Positions 3 to 21,100 of a stretch of 64,000 nucleotides of DNA are shown in pieces. Numbering within the stretch: the stretch's first letter is position 1; each line of letters opens with the position of its first letter. The notes beneath the pieces were generated by a model. That model searched no databases. It was not told the DNA's origin and saw only the letters and a list, made by a program, of their open reading frames with translations. This stretch comes from Pedobacter cryotolerans (GTDB lineage: Bacteria; Bacteroidota; Bacteroidia; Sphingobacteriales; Sphingobacteriaceae). The stretch covers positions 177 to 64,176 of the forward strand of contig NZ_SWBO01000009.1 of the NCBI RefSeq assembly GCF_005116475.1. The letters run 5' to 3'. Both the position numbers and the translations under genes were made by a program.

Positions 3-460
3 GGTGTAACGATTGTTACCAACGATAGCGGAACATGGGTTTTCAATCCAACGACCAATACATGGACAAACATTAACGGTCCAAAAGGAGACAAAGGAGA
101 TGCTGGTGTAGTAGGAGTAGAAGGACAACCAGGATCAACTGGAACCCCAGGTATCCCAGGATCAAGTGCAACAGGTGCTCCTGGAGCAGGCGTAACAATT
201 GTTACCAACGATAGCGGAACATGGGTTTTCAATCCAACGACCAATACATGGACAAACATTAACGGTCCAAAAGGAGACAAAGGTGACCCAGGTGTAGTAG
301 GAGTAGAAGGACAACCAGGATCAACTGGAACCCCAGGTATCCCAGGATCAAGTGCGACAGGTGCTCCTGGAACAGGTGTAACGATTGTTACCAACGATAG
401 CGGAACATGGGTTTTCAATCCAACGACCAATACATGGACAAACATTAATGGTCCAGCGGG
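3..460 (+). repeat. 186-bp (62-codon) tandem repeat in collagen-like gene
   Basis: Copies start at 3, 189 and 375 with an exact 186-bp period that keeps the reading frame. The third copy diverges after the NINGP motif at about 456 into a GPAGPQGPAG collagen stretch. The copies are almost identical in DNA (differences such as gca/aca and gat/gac), which points to recent expansion and probably variable copy number. Confidence 0.93.
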
Positions 461-1661
461 TCCACAAGGGCCAGCAGGAGCTGATGGAGCAGACAATATT
501 TTAGCAGATAATGGTTTAACAAAAGTTGCAAATACAATCAATTTAGGTGGAACGCTAATTGAACCAAAAACAACCATTATAACTAATACTACTCCAGGTA
601 GCAATACTTTAGCTATCACCGGTTTAACATTAGGTGTATTAACAGATAGTTTGATTGTATCTAGTCCAGGTGGTATTTTAAAAACATTGCCTTCATCAAC
701 ATTAAATTCAAATGATTGGCATATTACAGGAAATACAGGTACCGATTCAAATATTAACTTTTTAGGAACAACAGATCTTGCAAGTTTGAGATTTAGAACA
801 AATAATATCGAAAGAATGGCTATAGACGTTATAGGTAACGTTAGTATCGGTGCTACACCGTCCATTGGAGCTAAGTTTCAAGTAGCTACAGAGGATAGTA
901 AAGATGTAGTATTTAGTAGATACTTAAATAGCCCTGCTGATGATGATATTGATCTAGATTTTATAAGAGGCTACGGTACAATTGCAGCTCCAACAGTTGT
1001 AACTGCAAATGGTACGAGGCTTGGAGGAATAAGAGGAAGAACATTCATCAACGCTAACCCTGTTACTATGTTAGTTTCACCTTTATTGGCCTTTGCGCCA
1101 AGTGCTGAAGTAGCCTTTGAAACTGATGGCGTTCCTAGTACAACATCTGCACCGGGTAAAATTTTATTCAGAACAACTCCTGTTGGAGATATAGGGACAA
1201 TAACAAGAATGTTAATCGATAATGCTGGTAATGTTGGTATTGGAGTTACAGCACCAAACAACAAATTACATGTTTCTGCAACAGCAAATCCGGTACGTTT
1301 TGAAGGTTTACTAGCCAGTGCTAATGTTGCCGATAAGCAAGTGGTAGTTGATGGAGATGGTGTATTAAAAACCGTTGCAGGCTCTACTAGTGCGGCTATA
1401 CGTACGGTAACCGTAACGGTTGGCTCAAAAACTGCTGCAATAACTGATGAAACCATTTTAGTAGATGCTAGTGCTGGTTTAGTTCAAATTACACTTCCAG
1501 ATGCAACAACTGTTAAAGGTAAAAGGTACAACGTTAAAAAAGTTGACAGTTCTGCAAATGAGGCTCAAGTAATCTCTGCTGGTGGTACAATTGATGGTAA
1601 TGCTGCAAGGTACTGGTGTAACAGGTACATTGCCTTGGCAAGGTTGGGTATTCCAATCTGA
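3..1661 (+). CDS. Collagen-like repeat surface protein, 5'-truncated, frameshifted near its 3' end
   Basis: The reading frame is open from base 3, so the N-terminus lies outside the window. Residues 1-160 are collagen-like Gly-X-Y stretches (GPKGDKGD, GPAGPQGPAGADG) alternating with a conserved W-containing block (GTWVFNPTTNTWTNIN). The rest is a beta-rich head with fibre-type motifs such as GNVSIGA and GNVGIGVTAPNNKLHV. The frame stops at 1661 after a basic, out-of-character tail. Dropping one A near 1607 joins it to a frame ending at 1695 that reads GTLPWQGWVFQSDGTNWYII, the tail expected for this kind of protein. So the gene carries a one-base frameshift or the assembly has an error. It is probably a secreted or surface fibre; no sorting domain is visible. 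Confidence 0.75.
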   Translation, partial: GVTIVTNDSGTWVFNPTTNTWTNINGPKGDKGDAGVVGVEGQPGSTGTPGIPGSSATGAPGAGVTIVTNDSGTWVFNPTTNTWTNINGPKGDKGDPGVVGVEGQPGSTGTPGIPGSSATGAPGTGVTIVTNDSGTWVFNPTTNTWTNINGPAGPQGPAGADGADNILADNGLTKVANTINLGGTLIEPKTTIITNTTPGSNTLAITGLTLGVLTDSLIVSSPGGILKTLPSSTLNSNDWHITGNTGTDSNINFLGTTDLASLRFRTNNIERMAIDVIGNVSIGATPSIGAKFQVATEDSKDVVFSRYLNSPADDDIDLDFIRGYGTIAAPTVVTANGTRLGGIRGRTFINANPVTMLVSPLLAFAPSAEVAFETDGVPSTTSAPGKILFRTTPVGDIGTITRMLIDNAGNVGIGVTAPNNKLHVSATANPVRFEGLLASANVADKQVVVDGDGVLKTVAGSTSAAIRTVTVTVGSKTAAITDETILVDASAGLVQITLPDATTVKGKRYNVKKVDSSANEAQVISAGGTIDGNAARYWCNRYIALARLGIPI

Positions 1662-1705
1662 TGGTACAAATTGGTATATCATTAGTAGAATTTAAAAAAA
1701 AATAC

Positions 1706-1733
1706 AACTGCCTACCCAACAGGGTGGGCAGTT
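1706..1733. terminator. Hairpin after collagen-like gene
   Basis: A 12-bp stem (1706-1717 with 1722-1733, one G-U pair) closes a 4-nt loop just after the restored stop codon at 1695. The T tract sits on the minus-strand side (A run at 1694-1702), so it is a better terminator for minus-strand transcription. For the plus-strand gene it may act as a 3' stabilising hairpin. Confidence 0.55.
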
Positions 1734-1740
1734 AAAAATA

Positions 1741-1821
1741 AAAAAAGAGGGATGCGAAACTTTTTAGGGATGATTGGATTACGCATAAATAAGATTTTCT
1801 AATGATCTTGCCCTCTTTTTT
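1741..1821 (+). other. Candidate three-way-junction RNA or complex terminator
   Basis: An 11-bp outer stem (1741-1751 with 1811-1821) encloses two inner hairpins: 1752-1756 with 1782-1786 (atgcg/cgcat) and 1791-1795 with 1805-1809 (aagat/atctt). The 3' side of the outer stem is a T run. It lies between the collagen-like gene and the OmpH-like gene. It could be an unusual intrinsic terminator or a small structured RNA; no known family is recognised. Confidence 0.4.
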
Positions 1822-1859
1822 ATCAATTAAAATTAAGTTGCTGTAATCGATTTAATCAA

Positions 1860-2360
1860 ATGAAAAAATTAATCCTATTTACGCTAGCCTTGTTTTTTTC
1901 GGTTGATCAATGTAATGCGCAATTGGCCGTTATCAATAGTAAAAAGGTAATGTTAAGCGTACCAGCTTTTGCAAAAACAGATACGCTGATTGCTAAAGAA
2001 ACTGCTGTTTATGCTGCAGAATACAATAAAAAACAACTCTTCCTAAATCAATTGATTAAAGTTGCTGATAGTTTGTATAAATTAAATGCTAAATCTGAAT
2101 TAGCCAATAAGGCCATCGCAGATGCACAAGCTTCTGAGAAAGATTTAAAAAGCTACGCAGATGTTTCTAATAAAAAATTATTAGAATATAAACAATTACT
2201 ACAACAGCCATATATCGATAAAGTTATGGATGCCATTAAAGCCGTAGCCTCAAGATTAAAATACATGCAGGTTATAGATAATGCTTCGGTAGGAATGTTA
2301 TATGTTAATCCTCTATCCGACATCACCAATCAAGTAATAAACGAATTAAAATCCAAATAA
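1860..2360 (+). CDS. OmpH/Skp-family periplasmic chaperone-like protein
   Basis: 166 residues with a Sec signal peptide (MKKLILFTLALFF..., cleavage near NAQ at residue 21). A helical, Lys/Gln/Ala-rich middle (about 50-120) resembles the coiled-coil tentacles of Skp. The C-terminal part (YIDKVMDAIKAVA ... VLYVNP-like, DITNQVINELK) matches the end of the OmpH family. Skp/OmpH proteins hold unfolded outer-membrane proteins in the periplasm. Placed just ahead of a block of secreted fibre-like proteins, it may be a dedicated chaperone for them; that role is inferred. Confidence 0.75.
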   Translation: MKKLILFTLALFFSVDQCNAQLAVINSKKVMLSVPAFAKTDTLIAKETAVYAAEYNKKQLFLNQLIKVADSLYKLNAKSELANKAIADAQASEKDLKSYADVSNKKLLEYKQLLQQPYIDKVMDAIKAVASRLKYMQVIDNASVGMLYVNPLSDITNQVINELKSK

Positions 2361-2585
2361 ATGGATCATAATTTTAAGTCGATATTAAAATATTAGGTTA
2401 CAATAATGTTAAAAGGTTTACAAATAGTTTGAGGAAGTATAAGGATCTATTCTTTATAAAAAATAAAAGTTACTCCATAAATAAGTGCTAGTAGAACTTC
2501 TCGACTTAAGTAAATATTAAACATAGCAAAAGGTTTCACTTGTGTTAACTCGTTTTGAGATAACAAGCAGTATATCAAAATAAAA

Positions 2586-3866
2586 ATGAAAAAATTGATT
2601 AAAATATTTCCTCTCGTAATAGTTGCAATAGGAATGGTTAATGTTGTAAAAGCTCAACAGGGTTTTGGTACAAGCACTCCAGCTCCATCGGCTGTTGTAG
2701 ATATGGTTGCAGGTAACAAAGGGGCCTTATTACCTCGCATAGCTTTATCAAGTACTATAGTTGCTTCGCCAGTAACTTCCCCGGCAGACGCACTAACTGT
2801 TTTTAATACAGCAACGGCTGGATTAGCGCCCAATAATGTTACACCTGGGTATTATTACTGGAGCGTAGCAGGTAGTAGATGGGTTAGATTGCTTGACATA
2901 GCTACATCAGACATCAACCTTTATAAGGATAATGGTAGCATTACTGCTTTGGCTAATAGAACGGTCACTGTTCCTCATTCAACAAATTTAAATTTTTCTG
3001 GTTTAGGAGGCGGAAGTGTCTATACTTATATAGAAAGTGGTACTATAGGTTTATATGCTTATGATGCCAATGGCGTTATTGAGATAAGTACAGAAGGAAG
3101 TAATAGTGACATCACTTTATCAACAGCTGTGGCTGGTTCAGATGTATTACTACAACCTCAAACGAATGATAAATTTGTAGGTATTGGTACAGTATCGCCA
3201 ACACAAAAACTAGATATTGGTATTGGAAGTGTAAGAGTTAGAGATATTACTGCAACACACACTTTAGCAGCTACAGATAAAGTTGTTATTGCTGACAATG
3301 CAGGAATTTTAAAATCTGTTGATAAATCAGTTTTGGCCGTAGAGCCATGGTTTGTTCAAGGCGGTGAGCTTCAATCAAACTTAAATGCAGATCCAATTTA
3401 TCATACAGGAAGTGTAGCGATAGGTATTGCAAGTAGCGCAAGTATTCCTGCCGCAGAAGTTACAGCCCATAATCCAAAATTATATATCGAAGGCAATGTA
3501 AGCACTACAGGTTCTTATTATACGGCAAGTAGTGTTTATGCAGATTATGTATTTGAGAAATATTTCGCTGGTAAATCTGAGATCAATCCGAACTATGAGT
3601 TTAAGTCTTTAAACTACGTAAGAGATTTCATTAAGACTAAACATCATTTACCAGGAGTAACTTCAATTGCTGATTTGAGAAAGGCAAACAATGGCTATAC
3701 TTTCGATATGACAAAATTAACGGTTCAAAGTTTAGAGAAAATTGAAGAATTGTATTTGCATACCATTGAGCAAAAAGATAAGATAGACGCACAACAGAAA
3801 GAAATTTCAGACATGAAAATTCGTTTATCGCACATAGAAAAATTATTAACTCGTAAAGTTAATTAA
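2586..3866 (+). CDS. Secreted fibre-like protein with C-terminal coiled coil (cassette A, gene 1)
   Basis: 426 residues. Signal peptide about 1-23 (cleavage after VKA|QQ). Residues 24-102 are the module GFGTSTPAPSAVVDM..NKGALLPRI..ALTVFNT..GYYYW..RWVRL seen in many Bacteroidetes surface proteins. The middle has fibre-type motifs (DKFVGIGTVSPTQKLDIG). The end (about 310-426) is the widespread Bacteroidetes tail YVFEKYF..FKSLNYVRDFIKTKHHLPGV..LTVQSLEKIEEL followed by a coiled coil, probably an oligomerisation stalk. From 2905 to 3799 it is nearly identical to 10302-11196 of the second cassette. No T9SS sorting domain is visible. Its exact role is unknown. Confidence 0.7.
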   Translation: MKKLIKIFPLVIVAIGMVNVVKAQQGFGTSTPAPSAVVDMVAGNKGALLPRIALSSTIVASPVTSPADALTVFNTATAGLAPNNVTPGYYYWSVAGSRWVRLLDIATSDINLYKDNGSITALANRTVTVPHSTNLNFSGLGGGSVYTYIESGTIGLYAYDANGVIEISTEGSNSDITLSTAVAGSDVLLQPQTNDKFVGIGTVSPTQKLDIGIGSVRVRDITATHTLAATDKVVIADNAGILKSVDKSVLAVEPWFVQGGELQSNLNADPIYHTGSVAIGIASSASIPAAEVTAHNPKLYIEGNVSTTGSYYTASSVYADYVFEKYFAGKSEINPNYEFKSLNYVRDFIKTKHHLPGVTSIADLRKANNGYTFDMTKLTVQSLEKIEELYLHTIEQKDKIDAQQKEISDMKIRLSHIEKLLTRKVN

Positions 3867-8489: not shown

Positions 8490-9127
8490 TAATGGATTTG
8501 ATTTAAATAAATTAACAATCGGCTACATTGAAGTTATTTCGAAGTTGTTTGCAGTAGTATTGCCATCAAATAAATGATCACCTTAATAAAGTTGCGTTAA
8601 CATAAGCTTGTTCCAAAGCTAGCGGCATTTTACGAAAATAACACAATTTAAAGTAGACAAAAGTTTGTATAAAGCAGACTTTTGGCTAATAATCTGAGTA
8701 CGCTAATTAAACATTGGTTTTAAAGGTTTAAACTAGGATTTGGGTTAGCTTGTTCGTTGCCCTGAATTTATTTTAGGGTCTTTCATGCGGAATAGATGCT
8801 GAAATAAATCCTATACCTAGAGGATCAGCATCACGACCCTACGAAAAATAGACTTATTACAATGATAATTTCGTTGAGTAATTATCGAATTCAGGCTAAT
8901 AATAAACTAAAGAAATGAGATTGGTATTACGATAATACAATGATGTTTCTTGGGGAAATTTTTTCCCGATTTTTAGATTTATAAATTCTTTCTCCCCATA
9001 AATTGGGTGATGTATTTTGTTATATGAGCTGTAAAAGCGGTTTTATCAACTGGCACTTTAATTGAAAACAACAAAGCAATTATCTCCAAAGAAATAAAAT
9101 TAATAACCAAAAGGTTAAAATATAATT
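8490..9127. other. 638-bp spacer with degenerate palindromic repeat and regulatory region
   Basis: No coding potential is apparent. About 8758-8845 holds a degenerate copy of the CCTGAA..TTCAGG / GATGCTGAAATAAA palindromic repeat also seen at 61145-61205, here interrupted by an extra hairpin (atcct..aggat). The 3' part (8952-9066) holds the paired upstream motifs and sigma-54-like promoter described separately. An AT-rich stretch at 8640-8700 with a small hairpin (aaaagt..actttt) shows nothing more definite. Confidence 0.6.
8952..9066 (+). promoter_or_regulatory. Sigma-54-like promoter with upstream motif pair
   Basis: CTGGCAC at 9050-9056 and TTGA at 9062-9065 give GG, 10 nt, GA, the -24/-12 spacing of RpoN promoters (consensus TGGCAC, 5 nt, TTGC). 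Upstream lie GGGGA..TCCC (8952-8967) and TCTCCCCA (8991-8998). The same two motifs, 39 bp apart, occur before the promoter at 17625. They are candidate enhancer-binding sites for the gene at 9128. Confidence 0.55.
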
Positions 9128-11365: not shown

Positions 11366-14300
11366 ATGTTAAAAAAAATAATATCCTTTTGTTTCGCAAT
11401 GTTATGCTCAATTTGGGTATTTGCACAAGTGCCAACTTTAATTGGCTCTGCTAAGTTCTTTGCTGTTGGTTCTGGCTTAACTGGGGCGCCAACCTTTAAT
11501 TACAACATCCCAGCAGGAAATAATAGAGTCATGGTAGTAAGTGTAGTGATAGAAAGATTCCACGACCCACTAAATAGTAATTTCCCAGCAGGCGCAGATG
11601 GTATAGATAATAATACATCTGTACAAGTGTCAATTGGTGGAACTGTAATTAATGGCTTAGCTGGTTTTACATCTAAAATATCTGCTTTTCCGAATACAAG
11701 ACTTACAACATCAAGATATTATAGATATTTTAGTGAACAAGATGGACTGCCAACAGGAAATACTTCCATTACATTGCCAAATTTAAACCTTCCTGAGTCT
11801 GCATCAGACGAAATGTCTGTAATTGTTTCAGTTTACCAGAATGTAAAGAGTATTGTTCAAATACAAAATTCTTCAACTTTTGATCCAGGGCCAACGGGTA
11901 CAACATTAGTAACAGCAACTGGTGTAGTACCCGCTAACCCAGTTGGGCGCAGCGCAACCGAAATTATTTATCAAGCTGTTGGAAACAGTTCAGAAAGTGA
12001 AATAATTAGCTTATCCTCTGGTTGGGCAAGCACTGCTAACATGAGCAATGTGGTTACAAACTCTTCTACGGTTAACAATGTCTCATTAAATCCTAATGAA
12101 CCAGATGGTCTTTCGCACATAATAGGATATCGTACATATCCAGTAGGTACAAATCCAACAGTTACTTTTACGAGAGCAGGCACAGGACAAATACATATTG
12201 CTTCTGCATTTATTATGGCTTTAATGCCTCTTGCAAAGCCCGCAGTTACAGGTACAGTTTATATAGATAATAATGGTTTAACAGGAGGTGTAAATGGAGC
12301 AGGTACTTGGAATACCTCAGGAACACTTTGGGTAAATGCTATTAGCGACGGCATAGTAATAGCTAGAGCACCTGTAAACAATTTAGGGGTTTTTAACTTT
12401 CCAGAAGGCGGTAATTTGATTGAAGGAACCTACATCACTTTTCAGTTGAGTAAAAACGAAGGCATTGTAGGTTCTAATGCACCAGAAAAAGAACTTCCTT
12501 TAGGTTGGGGTACAGTTGGCGAAAGTACAACCTCTGGAACAAGCGATGGTACACCAAATGGAGAATTTCAATTTATGATTGGTAATGCCAATTCAGCAAA
12601 TAATACAACCAATAGGTTTGGGGTTACGGCTTGTGCAGCAGGTACTGCCGCACCAATTATTAATGCTGCTACTAATTATTCTGTAGCCAATAGTGCTTAT
12701 GGCATTCCATGTGGTTCAACTAAAGCGCTTTTAAGTACGCTTAGTGCTTCAAACAAACCTGCTGCGGCAACGGTAACTTTAACATGGCATACTGCTACAC
12801 CAGCAACTAACGACAATCTAGTTACAAACATTGACGATTTAGGTGGAACAGAAAAGGTATACGCAGCTTTCTACAGTTCGGTTAATGATTGTTATTCGGC
12901 AACAAAAGAAATTACCGTTTTAGCGCCGCTTTGTGCTGGCGATAATGATTTTACAGCTACGCCAATAATTTCTAATGTAGGGGGTACACTTCCTACTATA
13001 TTTGCCAATGATAGTTATAAAGGCATTACCATAACAAGTATATCAGCCATTACAGTTGATCGTTTGTATGAACTTTGGACACCTGCAAATGCAACAATTA
13101 ACGACAATGGAACTTTAACTATACCAGCCGGATTAGCGCCAGGTACATATACGTATTATTATAAATTGAGAGATACAGATCCTGATGTTGGCGCATTAAT
13201 TAATGACAGCCGAGTAGCAGAAGTTAAATTTAGAGTGGTAATAGATTCTGATGAAGATGGTATTGCTGATGAAACAGATTTAGACGATGATAATGATGGA
13301 ATTCTAGATAGCGATGAATGCGGATCAAATGAAAGAATATCAAATGGCGTTTTTCCAACAACGGGAGGTAATATCAATACGCTTACTGGTTGGACAGTTG
13401 GTGGAACTTATGCCGCATCAGGTGCTTGGGCATCTCCAACTGGTAGAATAAATTTAAATACAAATGGATTAGAATTTAGAAGAGACGCCGCTACAGTTTC
13501 AACTGTAACACAAAATTTAACAGGAGTTGTTGGTGGTTCTTCTATAAATATAAACGATTTCTATTGGATAAGAACCTTGCAGGATGCAGCTAGTGGAGGT
13601 TTTACATTTACCGTTTCTTATGCAGGTACAGTGTATGCCACAATAAATTCTACCACAATGAATGATACAACATCACCTATTCTTTCTGCAAATAATGGGG
13701 CTGGTGTTAATACCAATTCATTTCCTTTTGTTACCTCTGCTGGAACTATGTCTGGCAAAACTAATATTGTTATCACTTTGCCTACTAGTATTCCCTCAAC
13801 AGGAGCATTGGTAATTACTTATACTGCTAATGCTGACCCAACCGAAGTTAGAGGGGTTGGTATGAGATCAATATCTTTATTTTCTTGTGGAGATTTAGAT
13901 GAAGATGGAATACCTAATAGTTTAGATTTAGACAGTGATAATGATGGTTGTGTAGATGCATTAGAAGGAAATGAAAATGTCACAAATGCACATTTGGTAA
14001 CTGCTTCTGGAACGGTTGCTGTAGGCTTCGGTTCCACAGCTGCTAATCAAAACTTAGGAAATACGGTAGATGCCAACGGAGTGCCAATAATTGTAAACAC
14101 TGGTGGTGCAGCAGATATTGGTAGCGATGTAGGGCAAGGCGTAGGAAGTGCCTACGATAACCTAACTAACCCATGTTGCACAAATACAGCTGCTCCAGGT
14201 ACGCCAGATGGTTACACTAAAACAGGTGTTTCTAGTTTGGTGGGTTTTGCTAATGGCTGGCCAACTAATGTACCAAACGGGTTTATTGCTATCGAATCGA

Positions 14301-17449: not shown

Positions 17450-17515
17450 TAGGGGTATACGATATAATTTACTTGTGTAATTCAGTGCTTATATATTTAG
17501 TAATATGGTTGTGGT

Positions 17516-17641
17516 GGGGATTTTTTTTCCCAAATTATTCAAAAATAAATTATATCTCCCCAAATAATTATCTACAAAAGTTCAAAAAACCACCTAAACA
17601 AGGTCTCAAAGCAATCTTTAGTATGTGGCACTTTAATTGAA
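17516..17641 (+). promoter_or_regulatory. Sigma-54-like promoter with upstream motif pair before porP
   Basis: TGTGGCAC at 17624-17631 and TTGA at 17637-17640 give GG, 10 nt, GA. The core TGGCACTTTAATTGAAAA is identical to the one at 9051-9068. GGGGA..TCCC (17516-17531) and TCTCCCCA (17555-17562) lie upstream with the same 39-bp spacing as at 8952/8991. The distance to the -24 element is 11 bp longer, which keeps helical phase. The rest of this 305-bp spacer holds only the terminator. Confidence 0.6.
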
Positions 17642-17703
17642 AATGGGTATGCATCATACTCATTTTTACATTAAAACTCCTGGTAAAGCAGGCTTAACAT
17701 ACA

Positions 17704-18678
17704 ATGAAAAAAATATACATTTTATTTACACTAATCATTTTATGCCATATTGTTAAAGGGCAACAAGATGCTCAGTATAGTCAGTATATGTTTAACGGTA
17801 TTTATATCAATCCAGCTTATGCAGGATATAAAGAACAGTTGAATATACATAGTTTTTATCGTAACCAATGGACAGGTATTGATGGAGCGCCAGTAAGCAT
17901 GTCGCTTGCGGTTGATGCAATTGCAAACGAAGGAAATGTTGGTTTTGCATTACAAATAGCATCTGATAAATTGGGAGCTCAAAGTAGCATATCGGCCTAT
18001 GGAAATTATGCATACCGCTTAAGAGTTGGCAATTCAGAGGCCTCTCGTTTAGCATTAGGTGTAGGTTTTGGGGTGGTGCAAAACGGAATAAATGGAGATA
18101 TGCTAAACCCAATTGATTTTGGAGACAATAGAATTCCCATTGGGATGCAAAAGAATATTTTACCAGATGCTAGAGCAGGTGTATTTTATTCGAATGACAG
18201 GTGGTATGCTGGTTTTTCCGCTGATAATTTGATTGCGCAATATACCGTTAAACAAGATTTTTCTGCGGCTTATTATCCCACTCAAAAAGCACATTATTAC
18301 TTAACTGGAGGGGTTTTATTGCCTTTGAACGAAAATATACAAATTAAGCCTTCATTTTTGCTTAAAGACGATAGAGGTGGCCCTACAAGTTTAGATGTAA
18401 ACGCCTTTGTTTTATTAGCAGATAAGATTTGGTTGGGTGGTAGTTATCGTACAGCAGTGAAACTGTATGACAAATCGTATTTGCAGAAAGATTTGCAAAT
18501 GAAAAATTCAGTTGTGGCAATGACAGAAATTTTCGCAACTCCACAATTGCGATTAGGTTATGCATTTGACTATAGTTTGAGCAAGCTTTCTGGTTATAGT
18601 GGTGGTTCTCATGAAATTTCTGTTGGTTTTTATATCAGACCAAAGAATTTGAGAATGTTAACTCCTAGGTATTTCTAA
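17704..18678 (+). CDS. PorP/SprF family type IX secretion outer-membrane protein
   Basis: 324 residues. Signal peptide about 1-20 (IVKGQQ). The hallmark start DAQYSQYMFNGIYINPAYAG and later SFYRNQW define the PorP/SprF family of outer-membrane beta barrels, ending SVGFYIRPKN. Family members partner with proteins carrying type B C-terminal domains; the gene just upstream encodes one, so a cognate pair is likely. The gene has its own sigma-54-like promoter and is followed 68 bp later by the PorE-like gene. Confidence 0.92.
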   Translation: MKKIYILFTLIILCHIVKGQQDAQYSQYMFNGIYINPAYAGYKEQLNIHSFYRNQWTGIDGAPVSMSLAVDAIANEGNVGFALQIASDKLGAQSSISAYGNYAYRLRVGNSEASRLALGVGFGVVQNGINGDMLNPIDFGDNRIPIGMQKNILPDARAGVFYSNDRWYAGFSADNLIAQYTVKQDFSAAYYPTQKAHYYLTGGVLLPLNENIQIKPSFLLKDDRGGPTSLDVNAFVLLADKIWLGGSYRTAVKLYDKSYLQKDLQMKNSVVAMTEIFATPQLRLGYAFDYSLSKLSGYSGGSHEISVGFYIRPKNLRMLTPRYF

Positions 18679-18746: not shown

Positions 18747-20714
18747 ATGAGAAGAATATTCAATATAAGCATTATTGTAATTAGCATATTAATGCTCAAC
18801 ATATCTACTAGTAAGGCGCAATATGTACTTAAAGAGGCTGATATTCAGTTTGATCTTTATAATTATGAAAAAGCAGTAATACTATACACGGAAGCTTATC
18901 AAAAGAAAAAAACACTAAAGGCTACAGAAAGATTAGCAGAAAGCTACAGACTGATGCAAGATTACAAACAAGCAGAAAGTTGGTACGCACTTTTAATAAG
19001 CACAGAGGGTGCTAAGCCTGAAGCACACAGGTGGCATGCAGAAATGCTAAAAAATAATTCAAAATATAGCGAAGCCAAAGTGCAATATGCAAAATACGCA
19101 ACACAAGCAAAAAATTTAACTCCAGCTCAATTTAATCAAGTAGATGTTTGGCAAAAATCTTGTGATTCGGCTGTAAAATGGATGAGAAACCCAAATACAA
19201 TTGCCATCAAAAATGAAAAATCTCTAAATAGTGCTCAATCTGATTGGGCAGCTGTAAATTATAATGGTAATGTTGTATTTACTTCAGATAGATCAAATAT
19301 TGGAGAACTTAATGTAAGAACAGATAAACCATTTTTAAAATTTGATACGGGTAAAAAACCAGATAAAAAAATATACGGTTGGACAGGTAACGAATACTTA
19401 AAAATTTATCAAAAAGATAAATCAATTGATAGTATCTCTCTATTTCCAATAAATGCTCATACTGATTATCACGTTGGCGCTACGAGTTTTAGTAAAAATG
19501 GAAATGAAGTATTTTTTACATTAACAAAAATACCTAGTAAAGTAGAAAAGTTAAAAAATGCGCCTAGCACCATTAATATAGAAATTTACAGTAGTAAAAT
19601 GGAAAACGGAAAATGGAGTGAGCCTATTCCATTTCGTTACAATAAGGCGCAAGAATGGTCTGTTGGAGATCCTTATTTAAGCATAGATGGAACAACTTTG
19701 TTTTTTGTTTCTAATAAGCCAGGTGGATTAGGTGGTACAGATATTTATTATTGTAAACGTTCATCTGGAGGAAATTGGGGTGAAGCTATAGCCTTGTCGG
19801 CAGCTAATACTGCGGGTAATGAAAGAAGTCCTATGAAGGATGATGAGAATTTTTATTTTTCAACGGATGGTAGTATCAGTATGGGCGGCTTAGATATATT
19901 TAAAGCTAAAATTACAGATAGAGGGGTTTTAACGAATATCGAAAATATGGGCTATCCATTAAATTCTGCCCAAGATGATTTTGCTTTTAATATTTTAGAT
20001 AAAACAAAAGGTTATTTTGCCTCTAATAGAGAGGGTGGGATAGGTAGTGACGATATTTATACTTTTATAGAGCAACTGAAACTTAAATTTAGATTGGAGG
20101 GACAGGTATTTAATAAAGAGACAAATTTTCCTTTAGCAAATGCAGTAGTAACTTTAAAACATGTTAACGGTACGCCAATCAAAACTACTACTGATGAGAA
20201 TGGCAGATATAAATTTAATTTAGAAGAGAACACGGATTATAATGTTTTAGCAGAAAAAACAGAATTTAGAACAGCCAATGAAGATATAACAACCAAAGGT
20301 TTAAATGAATCAAAAGTGATTAAGCAGGATCTTTATTTGGCACAAATAGTTATTGGAAAGGAAATTAGAATTGAGAACATTTATTACGATTTCGATAAAT
20401 CTAACATCAGGCCAGATGCCTCTAAGGAATTAGATAAAATAGTTACTGTGATGAAAGAAAATCCAACAATTTGGATTGTACTTGGATCACATACTGATAG
20501 TAGAGGTAAAGATCAATATAACCAATGGTTATCTCAAAGTAGAGCTAACTCTGCCGTACAATATATAATTGATAGGGGTGTAGATAAAAGCCGTATAACT
20601 GCAAAAGGCTATGGAGAAAATAAACATGTAAACGAATGTGAAAATGGAGTGAAATGCTCAGAAGAAGCTCATCAATTAAATAGAAGAACCGAATTTACAA
20701 TTGTTAAACAATAA
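18747..20714 (+). CDS. PorE-like OmpA family protein (TPR, PD40 propeller, CarboxypepD_reg, OmpA)
   Basis: 655 residues. Signal peptide about 1-24 (STSKAQ). TPR-like helices (about 28-145) precede a PD40/WD40-like propeller (about 160-435; motifs VNYNGNVVFTSDRS, GTTLFFVSNKPGGLGGTDIY, GGIGSDDIY). A CarboxypepD_reg fold (445-535) and an OmpA peptidoglycan-binding domain (540-655) follow, the latter with YYDFDKSNIRP, GSHTDSRG and SRANSAV. This order is the architecture described for PorE, a T9SS component bound to peptidoglycan. Next to porP and a type B substrate it probably anchors this secretion/attachment module to the wall. It could be a paralogue dedicated to this locus rather than the general PorE. 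Confidence 0.88.
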   Translation: MRRIFNISIIVISILMLNISTSKAQYVLKEADIQFDLYNYEKAVILYTEAYQKKKTLKATERLAESYRLMQDYKQAESWYALLISTEGAKPEAHRWHAEMLKNNSKYSEAKVQYAKYATQAKNLTPAQFNQVDVWQKSCDSAVKWMRNPNTIAIKNEKSLNSAQSDWAAVNYNGNVVFTSDRSNIGELNVRTDKPFLKFDTGKKPDKKIYGWTGNEYLKIYQKDKSIDSISLFPINAHTDYHVGATSFSKNGNEVFFTLTKIPSKVEKLKNAPSTINIEIYSSKMENGKWSEPIPFRYNKAQEWSVGDPYLSIDGTTLFFVSNKPGGLGGTDIYYCKRSSGGNWGEAIALSAANTAGNERSPMKDDENFYFSTDGSISMGGLDIFKAKITDRGVLTNIENMGYPLNSAQDDFAFNILDKTKGYFASNREGGIGSDDIYTFIEQLKLKFRLEGQVFNKETNFPLANAVVTLKHVNGTPIKTTTDENGRYKFNLEENTDYNVLAEKTEFRTANEDITTKGLNESKVIKQDLYLAQIVIGKEIRIENIYYDFDKSNIRPDASKELDKIVTVMKENPTIWIVLGSHTDSRGKDQYNQWLSQSRANSAVQYIIDRGVDKSRITAKGYGENKHVNECENGVKCSEEAHQLNRRTEFTIVKQ

Positions 20715-20737: not shown

Positions 20738-21100
20738 ATGAATATTCTTATTGCTGATGATGTTAAAATTTACAGGCTTGCAATTAAATCCTATATCCAT
20801 AAATTATGGCCAGATGCTGTAGTTTATGAAGAAAGTAATTTAGATTCAGTAATAAAAGATGTTTTTGATGTAGAATATGATTTGCTGATATTAGCTGATA
20901 GTATGCCAGGTAATGAGCAAATTGAAGATTTTGTTACACAAGCAATAAAATACACCAAGGTAATTATATTTTGTGATTGTACTGAAGATAGCGCCAAAGC
21001 CAAGAGATTAATAGAATTGGGTGCGGATGGTTTTTTATCGAAAACGGCGACAGAGCAGGAGGTAATTAGCACTTTGCTATTTGTTTTTAGTGAAAATTAA
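20738..21100 (+). CDS. Stand-alone response-regulator receiver-like domain with displaced Asp
   Basis: 120 residues forming one receiver fold: acidic pair near the start (ILIADD), predicted switch strand VIIFCDCT and the conserved Lys in GADGFLSKTA. At the phosphorylation site the sequence is ILADSMPG. Aligned to canonical D-x-x-M-P, the acceptor position is Ala and an Asp sits one residue later. There is no output domain, although the C-terminal GADGFLSK is typical of LuxR-type regulators. It begins 23 bp after the PorE-like gene, so is probably co-transcribed. It may be a phosphorylation-independent adaptor. Confidence 0.7.
   Translation: MNILIADDVKIYRLAIKSYIHKLWPDAVVYEESNLDSVIKDVFDVEYDLLILADSMPGNEQIEDFVTQAIKYTKVIIFCDCTEDSAKAKRLIELGADGFLSKTATEQEVISTLLFVFSEN

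Follow-up and report, generated by a model that had tools for sequence, protein, structure and literature searches.

The window analyzed here is a stretch of 64,000 nucleotides from Pedobacter cryotolerans, whose genome comprises 4,246,102 bases in 32 contigs; it covers positions 177-64176 of contig 32. Two clusters of genes for surface proteins follow each other on its plus strand (Table 1). The first is a fibre cassette that starts with a gene for a 717-aa protein, for which no Pfam or NCBIfam family was found and which gave weak, tail-spike-like PHROG matches. The second contains a porP gene, followed by a porE-like gene. Downstream of the latter, a short stand-alone receiver-like protein is encoded (20738-21100; judged by eye), and such a gene is also found at 13014-13382 of locus L108, which contains the closest porP orthologue (see below). 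The contig itself opens within collagen-like Gly-X-Y repeats (positions 1-1000, locus L254; 1-650 of the window; by eye). The head of the first cassette on the contig and its promoter therefore lie outside of it.

Table 1. Features of the two gene clusters and of the regions preceding them (window coordinates)
Feature	Position	Strand	Remarks
Site 1 palindrome TGGGGA-N6-TTCCCG, proposed enhancer	8951..8968	+	core distance retained in relatives
Site 1 second upstream element TCTCCCCA	8991..8998	+	TCCCCA begins 58 bp 5' of core
Site 1 core TGGCAC-N5-TTGAA, σ54-type	9051..9066	+	18-bp repeat extends to 9068
Fibre cassette, first gene, 717 aa	9128..11281	+	signal-peptide-like N-terminus by eye; weak match to phage tail-spike-like phrog_4636
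Cassette protein, 1028 aa	11366..14452	+	secreted-type N-terminus by eye; no Pfam family
Cassette protein, 168 aa	14462..14968	+	secreted-type N-terminus by eye
DUF11-repeat protein, 782 aa	15050..17398	+	type IX secretion C-terminal domain (CHU_C / TIGR04131)
Site 2 palindrome TGGGGA-N6-TTCCCA, proposed enhancer	17515..17532	+	
Site 2 second upstream element TCTCCCCA	17555..17562	+	TCCCCA begins 69 bp 5' of core
Site 2 core TGGCAC-N5-TTGAA, σ54-type	17626..17641	+	18-bp repeat extends to 17643
PorP/SprF-family outer-membrane protein	17704..18678	+	PF11751 and TIGR03519, above cut-off
PorE-like / CHU_0125-like OmpA-domain protein	18747..20714	+	NCBIfam, below curated cut-offs

Core and upstream elements of the two promoter regions

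An 18-bp repeat, TGGCACTTTAATTGAAAA, is present as exact copies at 9051-9068 and 17626-17643 of the window. The first-pass annotation had located the first copy correctly and placed the second one base too far downstream (17627-17644). The cores contained in this repeat are of the σ54 type: the -24 element TGGCAC with its GG is present in both, and the -12 element has TTG at the canonical 5-bp spacing, with the C of TTGC replaced by A (TTGAA). The G of the -12 element lies at 9064 in site 1 and at 17639 in site 2. The distance from the start of the core to the ATG is 77 bp and 78 bp, respectively, and the repeat ends 59 bp before the gene for the 717-aa cassette protein and 60 bp before porP. 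When the window was shuffled 100 times, cores with up to three mismatches occurred at a mean of 0.38 sites, and 5 of the 100 shuffles contained at least two.

Both cores are preceded by a block of the sequence TGGGGA-N7-TCCC-N23-TCTCCCCA (8951-8998 and 17515-17562), which combines a palindrome with a second element. GGGGA begins at 8952 and 17516, TCCC at 8964 and 17528, and TCTCCCCA at 8991 and 17555. The 39 bp between GGGGA and TCTCCCCA that had been reported for both sites were measured in each case, and the gaps between TCTCCCCA and the core are 52 bp (site 1) and 63 bp (site 2), which is the difference of 11 bp noted before. A scan of the whole genome for this block, as proposed in the first-pass annotation, found at up to three mismatches only the two window sites, both exact and on the forward strand, and nothing on the reverse strand; the reversed control gave 0 and 0 matches.

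To judge palindrome and core together, we used a composite score (palindrome at least 10/12, core at least 18.5/19.5, 98-112 bp apart) and applied it to dinucleotide shuffles of the 300-bp upstream regions of these two promoters and of two porP promoters from relatives (see below). The composite was found in 0/20,000 shuffles for each of the four promoters, and the core alone occurred 10 to 70 times in the same 20,000. Since the window sites were already known when the scoring was fixed, these numbers are indicative for the window promoters and test the two relatives more fairly.

Another explanation for the likeness of the two regions would be a recent local duplication without functional meaning. 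The two copies are located 8.6 kb apart within one genome, and the cassette proteins encoded from 2586 and 9128 have long stretches in common (by eye). However, the spacer and the leader of the two promoters align no better than shuffled sequences, which reach the respective alignment score in 119/300 and 90/300 cases. Recent duplication therefore does not explain the likeness of the promoters, and the retention of the elements before porP in two other species also argues against it, so that we consider this explanation highly improbable.

Conservation in relatives

PorP relatives were collected by a scan of named genomes, and the best 80 of 287 were kept. Among these 80, the closest porP orthologues are found in the metagenome-assembled genome Pedobacter sp. 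PMG_085 (L108; 86% identity) and in P. namyangjuensis (L109; 84%). The porP promoter of L108 carries TGGGGA-N36-TCCCCA at exactly the spacing of the window, with the inner TCCC half shifted and degenerate; its core, TGGCATTCAAATTGAA, follows at 100 bp from the start of the block. In L109, TGTGGA-N6-TACCCA and TCCACA are followed by the core CGGCACTTAAATTGAA, which begins 99 bp after the start of the palindrome. The GG of the -24 element is retained in both. Measured from its start, the TCCCCA-like element is 58 bp away from the core in three of the promoters (site 1, L108, and L109) and 69 bp away in the fourth (site 2).

Enhancer-binding proteins act from dyad sites that lie 80-200 bp upstream and maintain their helical phase, and the distances from palindrome start to core found here are usual for enhancers: 100 bp for site 1, 111 bp for site 2, 100 bp for L108, and 99 bp for L109. 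The four promoters thereby keep roughly one helical phase, within about 1 bp, in agreement with the earlier proposal that the upstream sites lie on one face of the helix. The σ54 reading of the first-pass annotation likewise gains from the relatives, as porP of the two closest species is preceded by the same -24/-12 geometry, with the enhancer distance retained and the helical phase approximately so.

Among the relatives examined, the design is retained in these two other species only, in both cases before porP. In L108, the upstream cluster has no palindrome at its head (2471-2983) and a best core of 14.5/19.5 there, and the cassette head in L109 has a palindrome at 2591 with a best nearby core of 13.0/19.5. 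A joint design of cassette and porP was therefore seen in the genome of the window only. A strict core within 350 bp before porP was found in L108 only among the 80 loci, the core of L109 starting with a C and thus lying outside the pattern. Of the 18 upstream regions inspected, most show porP directly behind another gene.

Transcription could also start from an ordinary σA or ECF promoter nearby, with the core being incidental. The sprB-sprF operon of Flavobacterium psychrophilum has a second, non-σ54 promoter with the motif SM5, TAnnTTGY, according to the accessible part of the report (PMC9723704), and TATTTTGT at 9013-9020 of the window fits this motif, although one so short is often expected by chance. 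On the other hand, σ70-like matches amounted to 1 per region compared to 3.7 and 2.2 in shuffles, with a tool that does not cover promoters of Bacteroidota, and such a promoter would leave the conserved core unexplained. We regard this possibility as very unlikely.

Distribution of the palindrome

The palindrome was searched for (at least 10/12, gap 5-7) in 139,362 intergenic positions of the window and the 80 loci fetched around porP genes. Nine of the 13 distinct sites lie 148-263 bp before porP or the first gene of a cassette. These nine belong to seven operon heads in three genomes, and for three of these heads no convincing core was found near the palindrome, namely L109:2591 (13.0), L112:909 (15.5), and L116:3550/3570 (14.5 of 19.5); scores of 13.0-15.5 are often reached by random 150-bp windows. 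At L112:909-926, which is also from P. namyangjuensis, TGGGTA-N6-TACCCA precedes the gene for a 2941-aa cassette protein, with the poor core TGTCATTATTGTTGAA at 101 bp.

Two further observations concern the nature of the palindrome. The site at L109:9783, one of the nine, resembles part of a terminator by eye, and 8950-8969 of the window scores as terminator-like, as would be expected if the G-run/C-run palindrome formed a weak terminator hairpin or another RNA structure. But the second window site does not score, and the kept distance to the core is not needed by a terminator; the probability of this explanation is negligible. Alternatively, the σ54 core could be real and the palindrome bound by another regulator, for instance a NarL-type protein or a repressor, in which case the true activator would have its site elsewhere. 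The three operon heads with a palindrome and without a good core are in line with this idea, as is a NarL-type response-regulator-like gene (by eye, from the N-terminus) that precedes the cluster by no more than about 3 kb in L108 (409-1056) and L111 (1487-2134); moreover, none of the σ54 activators could be matched to the palindrome (see below). However, L111 has the regulator gene and no palindrome match, and the near-constant phase that the four promoters keep from palindrome to core is what a σ54 activator would need. Another regulator at the palindrome is therefore an unlikely explanation.

The core count in 1.45 Mb of fetched loci yielded too few sites for a consensus, and genome scans were performed for this reason. 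A strict composite of block and core was rejected: it matched in 33/60 genomes of the genus (with two to three mismatches among the matches listed), but with the exact sites of the own genome excluded, 64 matches compared to 64 in the reversed control, which is chance level. The pattern CCCCA-N38-68-TGGCAC-N5-TTGAA was found in 119 genomes twice in the own genome and once each in 11 other Pedobacter genomes, with two matches in the control. Nine of these 11 matches lie inside ORFs and two before other genes (L068 and L074), and none has the palindrome. In L068 and L074, CCCCA is located 38-68 bp before an intergenic TTGAA core, and the genes encode a small secreted-type protein and an hsp20-like protein (by eye).

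σ54 machinery and candidate mechanism

The first-pass annotation had named the lack of an rpoN gene as a refutation of its reading and had proposed to look for genes of σ54 activators. This refutation does not apply, as the genome encodes an RpoN of 491 aa (TIGR02395, 418.8 bits) and has 12 PF00158 matches above cut-off, six of which are strong (217-237 bits). All six strong activators contain the σ54 interaction domain and a Fis-type HTH, and five of the six have a receiver domain. Close relatives in other Pedobacter species were found for all of these groups, for L014-L018 by BLAST and for L013 by eye from the N-termini. No palindrome was seen near activator genes in the 55 of 70 loci scanned. 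Presence in relatives did not single out a candidate activator either, based on 50 of the 70 loci, with the NtrC-like L013 group and part of L017 missing. To our knowledge, the dyad TGGGGA-N6-TTCCCA fits no activator site.

In the own genome, rpoN (1492-2967, minus strand) adjoins a PorP/SprF-like gene (381-1394, plus strand; by eye, with a TTG start by ORF call) in locus L011 (C27:252918-256394). In another Bacteroidia genome, TTGGCAC-N5-TTGGA precedes an rpoN-like gene (L378; by eye), and rpoN may be self-regulated there.

Taken together, each of the two sites is probably a σ54 (RpoN) promoter with an upstream enhancer and an activator common to both. σ54 RNA polymerase would bind TGGCAC-N5-TTGAA, and transcription is predicted to begin near 9076 and 17651. 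The proposed target of the activator, a Fis-type enhancer-binding protein, comprises the palindrome TGGGGA-N6-TTCCC together with the neighbouring TCCCCA and lies about 80-140 bp 5' of these starts. The bound protein would loop onto the promoter and open it, the palindrome-to-core distance holding roughly one face of the helix. In this way, one activator could jointly induce the fibre cassette (from 9128) and the porP/porE-like genes (from 17704). The sequences show the promoter elements, their retention before porP in two relatives, rpoN, and the six candidate activators; from these we infer the binding, the operon extents, the start sites, the looping, and the single shared activator. The common promoter type and the matched upstream site, retained before one of the clusters in relatives, suggest that both surface-gene clusters are switched on together.

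The -12 element and RpoN

A search for TGGCAC-N5-TTG[AC]A in 18 Pedobacter genomes resulted in 73 matches compared to 41 in the reversed control. By the ORF test, 34 of the 73 are intergenic, with 32 TTGAA versus 2 TTGCA (only A and C were searched), and 39 lie inside ORFs, with 25 TTGAA and 14 TTGCA; Fisher's test gives p = 0.002, but many of the rows are orthologous and thus not independent. From these data, A at this position appears to be a local rule in Pedobacter. Twelve of the 34 intergenic matches precede lon, and others precede hsp20-like (L218), trigger-factor-like (L221), and OmpA-like genes (L058, L190, L232; by eye, from the N-termini). At L054 (own C1:487334), a core identical to that of the own lon promoter, TGGCACAAGAGTTGAA, precedes the gene for a 101-aa protein with a secreted-type N-terminus. 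TTGGCAC-N5-TTGNA matched 111 times in 45 Bacteroidia genomes, the own included. The 36 intergenic matches comprise 21 A, 5 C, 5 G, and 5 T, and the 75 inside ORFs 31 A, 13 C, 19 G, and 12 T. Hence, C is not favoured, but intergenic matches do not have A significantly more often than those inside ORFs at the level of the class (p = 0.11).

RpoN loci were examined for 30 of the 42 genomes with an RpoN match, including the own. All 30 proteins have D at the position of H377 and I (28) or V (2) at that of E378, and retain S379 and R383 (numbering by alignment to chain 9mse_M; H377-E378 as in enterobacterial RpoN). As far as the accessible parts of the two papers go, the GC of the -12 element is recognised by H377, S379, and R383 in bacterial σ54 structures (PMC9770992), and promoter DNA crosslinks to substituted E378 and R383 (PMC5505868). 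Given these contacts, the helix residues may plausibly have changed together with the -12 base. Whether σ54 of Bacteroidia has a changed promoter code, with the helix going from HEST.SR to D-[IV]-ST.SR and the -12 element relaxed or shifted from TTGC towards TTGA, is in our estimation an evenly balanced question. Among the papers we came across, none deals with a changed -12 element in Bacteroidota, but the preference may already be apparent from the motif logo of PMC9723704 or from the class-wise logos of PMC12316311, 33 of which are announced in its accessible part together with matrices refined class by class. If the changed code is true, a single matrix built on TTGC would under-score such promoters, including promoters of genes for adhesins and type IX secretion, and the changed -12 element alongside the changed helix residues would tie one promoter base to two protein residues.

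Comparison with known σ54 systems

Textbook σ54 promoters work with NtrC-type enhancers. The Pedobacter promoters resemble them in the -24 TGGCAC, the 5-bp spacer, and the TTG at -12, as well as in the dyad sites about 80-140 bp 5' of the predicted start and the presence of rpoN and activators with a Fis-type HTH, but differ in the A for C in the GC of -12. The textbook sequence is given as TGGCAC-N5-7-TTGCT in the accessible part of PMC12316311, which also reports an enrichment of chaperone and protease genes in Bacteroidota.

In a setting of PorP/SprF and surface proteins, one tested example of a σ54 promoter already exists. According to the accessible part of PMC9723704, the mapped σ54 regulon of F. 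psychrophilum includes lon, groES, dnaK, grpE, a probable OmpA-like lipoprotein, and the sprB-sprF operon, whose promoter was tested by reporter mutagenesis. As in this regulon, lon and OmpA-like genes (the latter by eye) are among the Pedobacter genes preceded by a σ54-type core. The window is also similar to remFG-sprCDBF, which encodes the adhesin SprB and SprF, in that a -24/-12 promoter precedes genes for a type IX secreted adhesin and a PorP/SprF-family protein. Unlike remFG-sprCDBF, however, Pedobacter would have two separate promoters, for the cassette and for the porP/porE-like genes. These promoters come with a matched upstream palindrome, whereas no enhancer site is described for remFG-sprCDBF in the accessible part of that paper.

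Our analysis thus provides a concrete candidate promoter/enhancer pair for surface and PorP/SprF proteins in Pedobacter. This reading would extend σ54 control of type IX secreted adhesins beyond Flavobacterium to another lineage.
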